Below are positions 58,417 to 61,998 of a stretch of 64,000 bases of DNA, piece after piece. Source of the DNA: Arthrobacter sp. Edens01 (lineage in GTDB: Bacteria > Actinomycetota > Actinomycetes > Actinomycetales > Micrococcaceae); the NCBI RefSeq assembly GCF_001307035.1, contig NZ_LKIU01000005.1:141664-205663 (forward strand). The letters are read 5' to 3'. The position numbers and the translations under genes were made by a program. The notes beneath the pieces are model-generated. The model worked only from the letters and a program-made list of their open reading frames with translations. It was not told the DNA's origin and searched no databases. The number at the start of each line of letters is the position of its first letter. Position 1 is the stretch's first letter.

Positions 58417-59598
58417 GTGCGCCCAAGTCCCCGTGCCCGGAAGCTCGAAAAGTCTGGAATTGGCGTGGCAACTGCAATCGTGAGGCGCGGGCTGAAGCTC
58501 GGAGGCCAGGCGGCCGTAATGGTGGCCCTTATCCTGGGACTCGTGGCCTTTGTTGGCACCAACAAGTCCGTCGTCCTGAACGTGGACGGCGAAACCAGTG
58601 ACATCATTACCTTCGGCGGCACCGTTGAGGATGTACTGGCAAAGGCCGACATCCAGCTCGCGGCAGCAGACCGCGTTGTTCCCGCGGCCTCCACCGAGGT
58701 GCAGGACGGCACCACAATTGAAGTGACCACTGCCAAGACCGTTGACGTCAACGTAGACGGCACCGGGCATACCATCCAGACCACCGGTGCCACGGTGGCG
58801 GACCTGATCTCCGAACTCCGGGTCTCCGCGAAGTCCTCCGTGTCCGCGTCACTGGACACCTCCCTGCTTTCACTTCAGGGCCTTTCCATCTCCACCCCCA
58901 AGACAGTCACCCTGCTGGCTGACGGTCAGACCCGCCAGCTGGAGACCACCGCCGGCACCGTCGGGGAAGTCCTGGCTGAAGCCGGCATCGCTGTCGGCTC
59001 CTCCGACCGGCTGTCCGTCCCCGCCCGGGCAGACGTGGCGGACGGTATGACGCTGAAGGTCACCCGCGTGGTTTCCGGCACCGAGGACACCGTTACCGAA
59101 CCTGTGCCCTTCGAAACCCGCAGCGTTGAGGACGCGGAACTCTTCGAAGGCGAAAAGAAGGTCACCGAAGCCGGAGCTGCCGGCGAACGCATCCTGGTCT
59201 TTGACACAGTGGTCGTCGACGGTCGCGAGGTCAACCGGGTACTGGTCCGGGAAGACGTCACGCGGGAGCCCGTAACCGAGACAGTCGCCGTGGGAACCAA
59301 GAAGCGCCCCGCACCTGCCCCGGCGGCAGCGCCCGGAGGCACTGCGCCTGCCGGCGGTGCCTGGGCCGCACTGGCCCAGTGCGAGTCCGGCGGAAACTGG
59401 CACATCAACTCCGGCAACGGCTACTACGGCGGCCTGCAGTTCAGCACGCAGAGCTGGCTCGGCGCAGGCGGCGGGGCTTACGCCCCGGTGGCCAGCGACG
59501 CCACTCCGGAGCAGCAGATCGCCGTCGCGGAGAACCTGCGGGCGAACGGCGGCTGGGGCCACTGGCCTTCCTGCGCACGCAAGCTTGGGCTGCTCTAG
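58417..59598 (+). CDS. rpfB: Resuscitation-promoting factor RpfB
   Basis: Secreted or membrane-tethered muralytic enzyme that stimulates growth of dormant actinobacteria. About 393 residues: an N-terminal membrane segment (VMVALILGLVAFVGTNKSVV), three DUF348 repeats (each with a pattern like TFGGTVEDVLAKADIQLAAA), a G5 domain (residues about 210-290), a Pro/Ala linker and a C-terminal transglycosylase domain with the catalytic Glu in LAQCESGGNWHINSGNGYYG. Start uncertain: GTG 58417 or GTG 58465. Between tatD and, after an inserted regulator, rsmA-ispE. Confidence 0.95.
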   Translation: MRPSPRARKLEKSGIGVATAIVRRGLKLGGQAAVMVALILGLVAFVGTNKSVVLNVDGETSDIITFGGTVEDVLAKADIQLAAADRVVPAASTEVQDGTTIEVTTAKTVDVNVDGTGHTIQTTGATVADLISELRVSAKSSVSASLDTSLLSLQGLSISTPKTVTLLADGQTRQLETTAGTVGEVLAEAGIAVGSSDRLSVPARADVADGMTLKVTRVVSGTEDTVTEPVPFETRSVEDAELFEGEKKVTEAGAAGERILVFDTVVVDGREVNRVLVREDVTREPVTETVAVGTKKRPAPAPAAAPGGTAPAGGAWAALAQCESGGNWHINSGNGYYGGLQFSTQSWLGAGGGAYAPVASDATPEQQIAVAENLRANGGWGHWPSCARKLGLL

Positions 59599-59654: not shown

Positions 59655-60890
59655 CTACGGGATCCTGCGGTATCGGGCCAGTGAAGCTGAAAGAGCCCGG
59701 ACATGTCCCCTCCGGTCAACCGCACCGGCCGTGTTGAACAGGGATTCGCTCTCTTCCAGCCGATCCGCTGCCGCCTGGGTCTGTCCCAGGGACGCCAGGC
59801 TGAGCGCCAGCTGCAGCGCCACTTCGGCCGCTGTCTGGGGTGGAAGCGAACTGCGCTGGGCGTACGCCTCGGAGAGCAGGTCAACGGCATGCTCATAGTT
59901 GCCGCTCAGCTGCTCCCAGCGCCCGTGCGTATGGATCAGGTCCACCGTGTCGATGCGCGAGGCGCCCACGACGGCGAGAGCAGCCTCCGCCTGCCGGATA
60001 CAGGCGAACGTCTGGTCGTCGTGAAGACCTGAGGACAGCCGCATACTGGCGGAGGCCTTGTTGAACGAAGCCCAAAGTCCCACGTCCAGCCGGGGACTGA
60101 GCAGTGCGCCGGCACGCTGGTGGAATCTCAGGCCGGCGGCGGAGTCGCCGCGGCGGAAAGCCACGTTGCCGACTGTCCAGAATCCCTTGCCGGCCAGCAG
60201 TGTATCCGGCACTGAATCGATGAGCGGCAGGACCATCACCCTGCAGAGTTCCCAGGCCTCCGGCAGCTGCCCGCTCTCAGCGAGCGCTGCGGTGAGGGAC
60301 AGATAGGCTTCCAGGGTTGTTTCGGCCCCTGCCTTTCCATCCTGTGCGGAGACCACTGCAGCCCTGCCGTGCCGGACGGCGTCGGGCAGCTTCCCCGCCC
60401 CCTGGCAGGCACGGGCCGCCAGGCCCTGGGCGCGGGAACGCAGGTCCGGCCTTTTGAGGACCTGCCTGTGACCGGCAAGTTCGGTTGCCTGCCGGATGCA
60501 GCCGCTGTAGTCCTCCAGCTTGAGGCGGGCCTGCCCGGCAAGCAGGGACGAGAGCCACCACTCCTGGGGATCATGTTCGGCCGTCGCTGCCCGGGCAGCG
60601 GCAAGCGCCAGCCCCAGGCAGCCCGAATAGTCCCGTTCATCCCAGGACTGGCAGGCGGCCAGGGCCAGGAACAGTGCGCCGTCGGGACCGCCGGGCCGGG
60701 GGCGGCTCCCGGGAGCTGCCGCCAGGCGCCCGGCAAGGCTGGAGATCAGTTCAATGTCCGGTTCGCGGCGTCCAGCCTCCAACAGTGAGACTTCGCGTTC
60801 ACGCAACCGGGGTGTCCCCAGTTCCCTGCGGCTAAGGAACCTCTCCTGCCGGACTGTTCGAAGCTTTTCACCAAAGATTTTACCCATCAC
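59655..60890 (-). CDS. HTH (XRE-like) and TPR domain regulator, RRNPP-like
   Basis: A 411-residue cytoplasmic protein with an N-terminal HTH (residues about 6-55, FGEKLRTVRQERFLSRREL and EREVSLLEAGRREPDIELIS) and about 350 residues of helical repeats of TPR type (WWLSSLLAGQARLKLEDYSG, LAAGLRF-type and NYEHAVDLLSEAYAQR). This layout and length resemble NprR/PlcR-class peptide receptors of Firmicutes. It separates rpfB from rsmA-ispE, which are adjacent in M. tuberculosis. Divergent from a 21-codon ORF. GTG 60890 or ATG 60887 start, ribosome binding site weak. Ligand and targets unknown; an alternative is a non-sensing TPR regulator. Confidence 0.85.
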   Translation of the reverse strand: MMGKIFGEKLRTVRQERFLSRRELGTPRLREREVSLLEAGRREPDIELISSLAGRLAAAPGSRPRPGGPDGALFLALAACQSWDERDYSGCLGLALAAARAATAEHDPQEWWLSSLLAGQARLKLEDYSGCIRQATELAGHRQVLKRPDLRSRAQGLAARACQGAGKLPDAVRHGRAAVVSAQDGKAGAETTLEAYLSLTAALAESGQLPEAWELCRVMVLPLIDSVPDTLLAGKGFWTVGNVAFRRGDSAAGLRFHQRAGALLSPRLDVGLWASFNKASASMRLSSGLHDDQTFACIRQAEAALAVVGASRIDTVDLIHTHGRWEQLSGNYEHAVDLLSEAYAQRSSLPPQTAAEVALQLALSLASLGQTQAAADRLEESESLFNTAGAVDRRGHVRALSASLARYRRIP

Positions 60891-61000
60891 CGTTACCGCC
60901 GTTCTTCCGGTACGCCAGACTTGGATCAGCCGCGGAGAAAGACGCTACAGTCCGGTTTCCTCCAGCGGCAGAGCAACAGTGAAAGCGCGGAAGGAATCCA

Positions 61001-61066
61001 ATGAGTCTTTTCAAGCTACCGTTCCAGCAGTCGTCCGCCCGTTCCGTGGGGGACTGGCCTGACTAG
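61001..61066 (+). CDS. Candidate 21-residue signalling peptide gene
   Basis: A small ORF, ATG to TAG, with GGAAGGA (60989-60995) five bases upstream, one of the best ribosome binding sites in the window. The product begins MSLFKLPFQQ and ends SVGDWPD; it has one lysine and one arginine near the middle and a Trp-Pro-Asp tail, with no classical signal peptide. Divergent from the HTH-TPR gene, with 110 bases between the two starts. A TACAGT box at 60946-60951 may be its -10. It could be a pheromone precursor read by the neighbouring regulator, a leader peptide for rsmA, or a chance ORF. No homologue is known to me. Confidence 0.5.
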   Translation: MSLFKLPFQQSSARSVGDWPD

Positions 61067-61107: not shown

Positions 61108-61113
61108 TAGTAT
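61108..61113 (+). promoter_or_regulatory. Leaderless -10 box for rsmA
   Basis: TAGTAT ends exactly six bases before the GTG at 61120, giving rsmA-ispE its own promoter independent of rpfB. Confidence 0.65.
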
Positions 61114-61119
61114 GAGGCA

Positions 61120-61998
61120 GTGACTGAATCTGTTTCCGCGCCCGTTCCCCGGCCCAAACCGCTCCTTGGCGCCTCCGATATCCGGGAGCTCGCAGAAGAG
61201 CTGGGCGTGCGGCCCACCAAGACCCTTGGCCAGAACTTCGTCATTGACGGAAACACAATCCGCAGGATCGTATCCGCCGCGTCCGTGGACCCGGCCGAAA
61301 CCGTCCTCGAAGTGGGGCCGGGCCTCGGCTCCCTCACCCTGGGCCTGCTTGATGCTGCCCGGGAAGTGGTGGCGGTGGAGATTGATCCGGTCCTTGCCGA
61401 AAGGCTTCCTCTGACCGTCCAGACCTGGCGGCCGGAACAGGCCCAAAACCTTCATGTGGTGCTGGCTGATGCCATGCGCGTTACCGATCTTCCGGCAGAA
61501 CCCACGGCCCTGGTGGCCAACCTGCCCTACAACGTGGCCGTGCCGGTGGTACTGCACCTGCTCGAAACTTTCCCGACCCTGCGCCACGGCCTTGTTATGG
61601 TTCAGGACGAGGTTGCCGACAGGCTGGCCGCCCGTCCGGGATCAAAGACCTACGGGGTTCCCTCCGTCAAGGCTGCCTGGTACGGCACCATGCGCAAGGC
61701 CGGCGTCATCGGCATGAACGTCTTCTGGCCCGCGCCCAAGATCGCTTCCGGGCTGGTTGGCTTCGAACGCCATGAGCCGCCGGCAACAACTGCCACGCGC
61801 GAAGAAGTGTTCGCGGTCATCGACGCCGCCTTTGCGCAGCGCCGCAAGACCCTGCGTGCAGCCCTGGCAGGCTGGGCGGGCAGTCCGGCTGCGGCCGAAA
61901 CCGCTCTGCGTGCAGCAGGCGTTGACCCCAGTGCCCGCGGCGAAGTGCTGGATATCAACGCCTACACCCGGATCGCCGAGGCGAAGGCGGCATCGTGA
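61120..61998 (+). CDS. rsmA: 16S rRNA (adenine(1518)-N6/adenine(1519)-N6)-dimethyltransferase
   Basis: KsgA, the SAM-dependent enzyme that dimethylates A1518 and A1519 in small-subunit assembly; its loss gives kasugamycin resistance. 292 residues; [15 protein letters not shown] near residues 37-51, the SAM loop [16 protein letters not shown] near 66-81 and the catalytic NLPYNVAVP near 133-141. GTG start set by TAGTAT six bases upstream. Overlaps ispE by 4 bases (GTGA). Confidence 0.97.

Follow-up and report, generated by a model that had tools for sequence, protein, structure and literature searches.

A putative Trp-Pro peptide signal beside an RRNPP-like HTH-TPR regulator in Arthrobacter and related Actinomycetes

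Receptors of the RRNPP(A) type consist of an N-terminal helix-turn-helix (HTH) domain and a C-terminal superhelix of five to nine tetratricopeptide repeats (TPRs), as defined in passages of one survey (PMC9765709), and excerpts of the published surveys treat these systems as a speciality of the Firmicutes (PMC9765709, PMC10075063). One of these surveys describes actinobacterial signals, in the passage concerned, as typically small molecules (PMC9765709 / PMC10075063), and a section of an older review lists cyclic or modified peptides and butyrolactones for Actinobacteria (PMC4748050). Here we describe a locus of Arthrobacter sp. Edens01 (contig NZ_LKIU01000005.1, positions 141,664 to 205,663; this stretch of 64,000 nucleotides is referred to as the window), in which a 411-codon open reading frame (ORF) for an HTH-TPR regulator (59655..60890, minus strand) stands divergent to an ORF of only 21 codons (61001..61066, plus strand) with the product MSLFKLPFQQSSARSVGDWPD. 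We propose, with a probability of about 0.74, that the small ORF encodes a ligand peptide and that the neighbouring cytoplasmic regulator, as an RRNPP-type receptor, recognizes the C-terminal core of this peptide, approximately VG[D/N]WPD. The best reading of the comparisons presented below is a family of Trp-Pro (W-P) peptides and TPR receptors of Actinomycetes, which would work like RRNPP systems.

The nearest described counterparts are PlcR-PapR and NprR-NprX of the Bacillus cereus group. As in those systems, an HTH is followed by a TPR superhelix, a small peptide gene adjoins the receptor gene, and the peptide has a C-terminal core; repeated cores are reported for NprR propeptides in a passage of PMC9765709. 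Unlike PlcR-PapR and NprR-NprX, the present locus belongs to Actinomycetota, its peptide gene is divergent instead of downstream, the core is of the W-P type and occurs in up to six copies, and the peptide of Arthrobacter in the strict sense has no evident signal peptide. The sequence match, too, is limited to regulator residues 4-196, and the pairing here is putative. In ComRS, Rgg-SHP and RopB-LCP, a short peptide without a classical signal sequence is encoded beside an HTH-TPR-like receptor. The Arthrobacter peptide resembles these in being short, in having no classical signal sequence and in its position beside an HTH-TPR regulator. It differs from them in its W-P core, in the lack of a match to the EcsB exporter family, and in having homologues elsewhere with signal-peptide-bearing precursors.

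The small ORF and the divergent regulator

The locus was compared across the genomes of 59 relatives, 29 from the GTDB genus to which the window belongs (Arthrobacter sensu stricto, including A. citreus, A. koreensis, A. luteolus and A. gandavensis) and 30 others. As noted in a preliminary description of this DNA, the 66-base ORF carries a Shine-Dalgarno sequence, GGAAGGA (60989..60995, plus strand), five bases 5' of its ATG. Intact versions of the ORF were found in 15 of the 29 genus genomes. They have 19-23 codons, begin with ATG and end in V-G-[D/N]-W-P-D-stop, and a purine-rich site lies upstream of all 15. In the window, the conserved C-terminal hexapeptide, which is the likely active core, is encoded by the VGDWPD codons at 61046..61063 (plus strand).

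Comparison of the 15 sequences shows that the C-terminus of the ORF is under coding constraint. In the last six codons, changes counted as distinct nucleotides number 1, 0 and 8 at codon positions 1, 2 and 3, respectively. Val and Gly are each encoded by all four of their codons and Pro by three, there is a single D/N exchange, and the stop behind the core varies among three codons. The mean pairwise mismatch by codon position is 0.09, 0.00 and 0.32 in the core, compared to 0.50, 0.58 and 0.59 in codons 2-6 and 0.66, 0.64 and 0.62 in the 21 bases 3' of the stop codon. The 21-codon ORF is very probably a real gene. Codon-level conservation, which the preliminary description had suggested looking for in the last residues especially, appears precisely there, the last six codons being constrained at the protein level in 15 genomes. 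The amphipathic start that it had pointed out did not hold up as a conserved feature, since the residues separating the start from the core vary among the intact ORFs. A back-translated VG[DN]WPD-stop pattern gave one match per genome in these same 15 of 29 genus genomes, each at the regulator locus; there were no matches in the 30 non-genus genomes, and the reversed control gave none in all 59.

The regulator probably starts at ATG 60887 and thus has 410 residues, because most homologues begin at the second Met. A protein search detected it in all 29 genus genomes and in 33 of the 59 overall. Its AlphaFold model (predicted local distance difference test, pLDDT, 95.0; predicted template modelling score, pTM, 0.91) contains four helices in residues 3-56, forming the HTH, followed by 18 helices up to residue 407. 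The earlier reading of the 411-codon ORF as an N-terminal HTH with helical repeats to the end is confirmed by this model, and the predicted architecture, an N-terminal HTH with a C-terminal TPR superhelix, is that of RRNPP(A) receptors. Pfam gave a weak TPR_12 match alone for the window protein, and HTH_31, HTH_3 and TPR_12 above the cut-off for the homologue L116.

A profile of 43 regulators was searched against PDB (E up to 1), and the best 60 of 95 matched sequences were considered. Among these, PlcR is the sole sequence with a best stretch spanning both the HTH and the TPRs (E 8.9e-10), with an alignment of 40 bits over regulator residues 4-196. Three designer pentatricopeptide chains outrank PlcR through summed short repeats, none of which passes singly, and ComR chains, among the PDB sequences listed, match the profile in the HTH. 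The regulator is probably related to RRNPP receptors, as judged from its architecture and the PlcR-level profile match. Foldseek comparison of its model shows a TPR array, a fold that by itself would not point to RRNPP in particular. To the NsdA-family TPR regulators there is a weak NCBIfam match, confined to 64 residues of the TPR part (E 1.9e-4); its 21.1 bits are far below the curated cut-off of 75 bits.

W-P precursors beside homologous regulators

Regulator homologues from other genera of the family show 34-39% identity (alignment A1, prepared without L017, L020, L022 and L026). Twenty other-genus loci were inspected, namely L030 and 19 picked for genus spread among the matches listed; the peptide types at these, at distant and at paralogue loci were counted by eye from the listed ORFs. 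A divergent precursor, with a signal-peptide-like start followed by a W-P core, was found at 17 of the 20. The typical order, as in Pseudarthrobacter, Paenarthrobacter and Sinomonas, is signal peptide, spacer, [VI]GNWPDPM, spacer, [VI]GNWPDPM, and the core variants at other-genus loci include GNWPN, GIWPD, GEWPH, GDWPH and VGIWPN. The related-genus precursors are positive for a crude signal-peptide pattern, which gave one false positive, the leaderless Arthrobacter ORF of L074.

A larger set consisted of the best 80 of 322 named loci. Some of its genomes are common to the 29-genome set (L001-L029), and the two sets are therefore not independent. The motif [VIPTAS][GWS]xWP[DNHE] occurs in the divergent 900 nucleotides at 76 of the 80 loci, with two to six copies at 64. 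The four loci without it are Arthrobacter loci that have lost the ORF (L075-L078), and the leaderless ORFs of Arthrobacter (L068-L074, L080) account for eight of the 76. A looser motif also matched unrelated ORFs in L077 and L078, both of which the stricter motif drops. On the opposite strand of the same 900 nucleotides the motif was absent from all 80 loci; among 1576 other 900-nucleotide tile-strands, none had two or more copies and 19 had one or more. Thus, a propeptide gene adjoins the receptor gene, as in RRNPP(A) systems, in 15 of 29 genus genomes and at 76 of 80 named loci. The preliminary description had paired peptide and receptor from position and architecture, and this pairing gains support from the constrained C-terminus together with the motif recurring divergent to homologues.

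The precursor promoters also have a TTTTACAATNNNTGTCAACA-like site in common, detected by pattern search at 61 of 68 loci. Within one genus, a TTTTACAATNNNTGTCAACA-like 20-bp operator-like motif (two mismatches or fewer) was found in 10 of 10 genomes, in each case at a single site, which lies immediately upstream of the regulator. Three other genomes contained none, and the reversed control gave 1 match in all 13.

A second pair is located approximately 98 kb downstream of the window's locus on the same contig (L067, 297800-302800). It comprises an HTH-less TPR paralogue of 362 residues (G000:C5:299831-300793), which is 35% identical to the regulator over residues 80-392. In 30 of the 32 copies examined, at most 36 codons of open frame precede the paralogue start, and the model (pLDDT 93.9, pTM 0.87) is one helical-repeat array with no separate HTH domain. 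Two highly conserved helices, W-x-[VI]-G-N-V-A-F and W-A-x-F-N-K-A-S, are common to the regulator and the paralogue. The paralogue faces a 47-mer with an apparent signal peptide and the end VGWWPN, and both the paralogue and a small signal-peptide-bearing ORF are present in 29 of 29 genus genomes, with a WP tail in 26 and an FP tail in 3. Judged by its genes, this pair is a Rap-like arrangement. As in Rap-Phr, a helical-repeat protein without an HTH accompanies its own signal-peptide-bearing peptide, and the conserved Asn of Rap, which anchors the peptide main chain according to an excerpt of PMC11343458, invites comparison with regulator residues N241 and N276 discussed below. Unlike in Rap-Phr, the 18 PDB sequences matched by the paralogue profile include no Rap, and eukaryotic TPR proteins rank higher by fold; five Rap chains appear in the Foldseek top 50, the first at rank 26.

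A profile search extended the distribution to 34 of 297 genomes of the order (E 1e-10) and 35 of 394 genomes of the class (1e-14), the home family included. By a crude count made by eye and without a control, W-P peptides lie beside 6 of 39 distant homologues (GGSWPT three times, DTWPA, DIEWP twice, DISWP three times, DWPWI and GWGWPG). In the same count, peptides ending in Cys-Cys (C-C) lie beside 10 of the 39, one of them downstream instead of divergent and two identical; such peptides are a possible second class of peptide signal. The ten C-C loci (L167-L169, L174-L177, L265, L267, L269) have signal-peptide-like ORFs with sequences such as NANYACCAP and GPGPACCTT.

At even odds we would place the broader proposal that Actinomycetes possess a large peptide-signalling superfamily of their own, in which HTH-TPR receptors and HTH-less Rap-like TPR proteins each have a small partner peptide of the W-P type (C-C in other families) that is exported by Sec and frequently encoded in several copies. 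In strict Arthrobacter, one of the two signals would have become a leaderless 19-23-mer, changing from an intercellular pheromone to a cell-autonomous or non-classically exported peptide, and three losses would have followed. A phage or mobile origin was rejected, and the locus is not phage-borne like the arbitrium (AimR-AimP) systems: there were no matches in 50,697 phage records, and no relative was confirmed among viral contigs. HTH-TPR homologues of 28-30% identity occur in seven Streptomyces plasmid records. On the large plasmids of L279-L281, some of them have aminoglycoside-phosphotransferase-family or SARP genes nearby; in the three records whose annotation was examined, no peptide could be assigned to the regulator.

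Our search of the open PMC literature, whose scope leaves out preprints and most subscription papers, found no description of such an actinobacterial W-P/RRNPP-like system, and six W-P core strings matched unrelated papers only. This agrees with the preliminary description, which knew of no actinobacterial case with this layout. Compared with the literature found, several features are apparently new: the phylum, a peptide gene divergent to the receptor gene, the W-P core, its many copies and the version without a leader. The locus and its family suggest that actinobacteria, too, communicate by peptides of a type hitherto known from the Firmicutes. If this is true, a linear W-P family with intracellular receptors would extend across the Micrococcaceae, with hints in other families of Actinomycetes, and peptide communication in soil- and plant-associated actinobacteria would be open to direct test. 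Practical assets for such work are synthesizable peptides, many receptors in named public genomes, and tandem precursors, which serve as natural sequence variants.

Proposed mechanism and its alternatives

We propose that the peptide core sits in the concave groove of the TPR array and thereby changes how the regulator binds DNA, at the divergent promoter common to both genes and possibly at other sites. The peptide would also autoregulate the locus. Outside Arthrobacter, the core would be cut from a secreted (tandem) precursor and then re-imported. The window's genome encodes seven SBP_bac_5 oligopeptide-binding proteins above the cut-off, which are candidates for such re-import. In strict Arthrobacter, the peptide may leave the cell by another route or act inside the producing cell, because no signal sequence is evident.

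Several observations weigh against this proposal. The regulator is kept and the intact ORF is gone in 14 of the 29 genus genomes, and inspection of all 15 intact ORFs (19-23 codons) by eye showed no hydrophobic signal stretch. The window's genome has no match to the EcsB family, which includes PptB, a part of the streptococcal exporter; the control search gave matches in B. subtilis and L. lactis. No precursor was seen at 3 of the 20 other-genus loci, and 23 of the 39 distant homologues have neither a W-P nor a C-C peptide nearby in the crude count by eye. The Pfam family RNPP_C gives no match for the window protein and remains below the cut-off in L116 (E 0.17); the profile comparison with RRNPP families proposed in the preliminary description gave a PlcR match (E 8.9e-10 over residues 4-196) and no RNPP_C match above the cut-off. 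In Foldseek, eukaryotic TPR proteins head the list for the regulator model, with PlcR-PapR-DNA following at rank 42 and a Rap directly after it (rank 43). The operator-like sites occur in single copy per genome in the related-genus and Arthrobacter pattern searches, so no regulon was found. The association of residue N241 with ORF loss corresponds to three changes on the tree, and for this reason a sign test cannot reach significance.

A serious possibility, somewhat short of even, is that the peptide of strict Arthrobacter is a purely intracellular co-regulator in a cell-autonomous feedback, derived from a pheromone that was once secreted but whose signal peptide has been lost. This would account for the 15 short ORFs without a hydrophobic stretch beside the signal-bearing precursors of related genera, and it is consistent with the missing EcsB match and with the ORF losses, which show that the signal is dispensable. 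Conversely, the EcsB-family search covers one exporter type only, and a leaderless peptide, the LCP of the RopB system, is secreted in Streptococcus pyogenes according to an excerpt of PMC10518010. As to the likeness to ComS and SHP pheromones drawn in the preliminary description, the Trp-containing C-terminal tail is conserved; with no signal sequence evident in the Arthrobacter peptide and no EcsB-family match in this genome, the comparison with an exported pheromone is weaker.

It is unlikely that the W-P peptides are effectors (antimicrobial, surface-acting or resembling ribosomally synthesized and post-translationally modified peptides, RiPPs) whose expression the TPR regulator controls without binding them. 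Multi-core RiPP or toxin precursors have tandem cores with spacers, which the tandem W-P precursors recall, and an operator-like site solely at the precursor promoter, as in the 10 genomes of one related genus, would suit this explanation. However, the Arthrobacter form is a bare 19-23-mer between rpf and rsmA, and an HTH-less TPR paralogue with its own peptide better fits a receptor-ligand pairing. At two loci, no modification enzyme was present in the 8 neighbouring ORFs examined of 16, which encode ATP-binding cassette transporters, purine genes, an asparaginase and a penicillin-binding protein; a RiPP precursor was rejected on the lack of a maturation enzyme among these ORFs.

The losses within Arthrobacter also raise the question of whether the ORF is merely the remainder of a precursor once secreted, still constrained in some species but disappearing from the genus by decay; we regard this as quite improbable. 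Its absence in intact form from 14 of 29 genomes and the signal peptide already gone would fit such decay; the core of the 15 intact ORFs, with 8 third-position changes against 1 first-position change, points to active constraint. By eye, the ORF-less genomes have the start codon replaced, the W or stop codon altered, or the motif unrecognisable. In a regulator tree of 47 rows, they form one clade of 12 together with L013 and L028, corresponding to three changes; L028 lies on a long branch (1.35, compared to a median end branch of 0.12). The tree was built without L027 and L029 (regulator in two frames), L031 and L032 (sites identical to L048 and L049) and L067. The change count alone has no direction, and the ORF remnants that persist in L013 and L028 speak for loss rather than gain. 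The preliminary description had held that a small ORF not conserved in relatives that keep the regulator would speak against the pairing; this is the case in 14 of the 29 genus genomes, and in the other 15 the ORF is conserved. The Arthrobacter loci thus form a natural series from the intact pair to the lost ligand, useful for following receptor evolution without a signal. In L027 (G005) and L029 (G014), the regulator is split across two frames and the small ORF is intact, which reflects either a real frameshift or an assembly error.

Across 30 peptide-bearing receptors, 61 residues are invariant, including N241 (30 of 30). Of the 109 rows that do not carry the loser label, 108 have Asn at position 241; the remaining one, L080, is a 190-residue fragment broken by a frameshift. 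N241 is changed in 8 of the 14 ORF-loser genomes; N276, which is also invariant, is changed in some losers too. As evidence for a ligand anchor, N241 is suggestive only. The number of changed invariant positions in the losers, 0-4 (10 in L028), overlaps the 0-3 of the leave-one-out control, and the three precursor-less receptors, with 1-4 changed positions, also overlap the range of the losers.

Promoter region and neighbouring genes

The intergenic region contains a promoter/operator-like arrangement, TTGGAT, 17 nucleotides, GCTACAG, 16 nucleotides and GGCAGAG (60921..60973, plus strand), which presumably acts as a promoter. The spacing of its GCTA[CG]NN-N16-GG[CG]AGRG part (window 60944-60973) is identical in 29 of 29 loci of the genus, including those that lost the ORF (L013, L015-L026, L028). 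The fixed spacing is kept despite the decay of the ORF, and therefore another role besides the ORF is possible. The regulator's own promoter lies in this interval too, so the element might act as an operator for the regulator as well, perhaps in autoregulation. Off-locus, the Arthrobacter element gave 11 matches in the 29 genomes, which is not above the 27 of the reversed-pattern control.

Downstream of the small ORF lies rsmA/ksgA (61120..61998, plus strand; Pfam RrnaAD, 4.9e-44), a conserved neighbour that adjoins the regulator in 29 of 29 genus loci. A TAGTAT six nucleotides 5' of its GTG (61108..61122, plus strand) is conserved in the genus and, by its spacing, suggests that rsmA probably has its own leaderless promoter; the small ORF therefore need not be an rsmA leader. 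The ORF and the downstream rsmA share a strand and are 53 bases apart, but a translated leader, attenuator or RNA element for rsmA is very improbable and was rejected on this promoter-like site, the amino-acid-level conservation and the absence of any Rfam family near the gathering score around the small ORF, and elsewhere the motif travels with the regulator, rsmA having no match in 20 of 20 other-genus loci (approximately 4-5 kb). Among the window neighbours, Pfam identified tatD, rpf and rsmA. The rpf-like gene (DUF348-G5-transglycosylase; 58417..59598, plus strand) is convergent with the regulator and is found in 29 of 29 genus loci.
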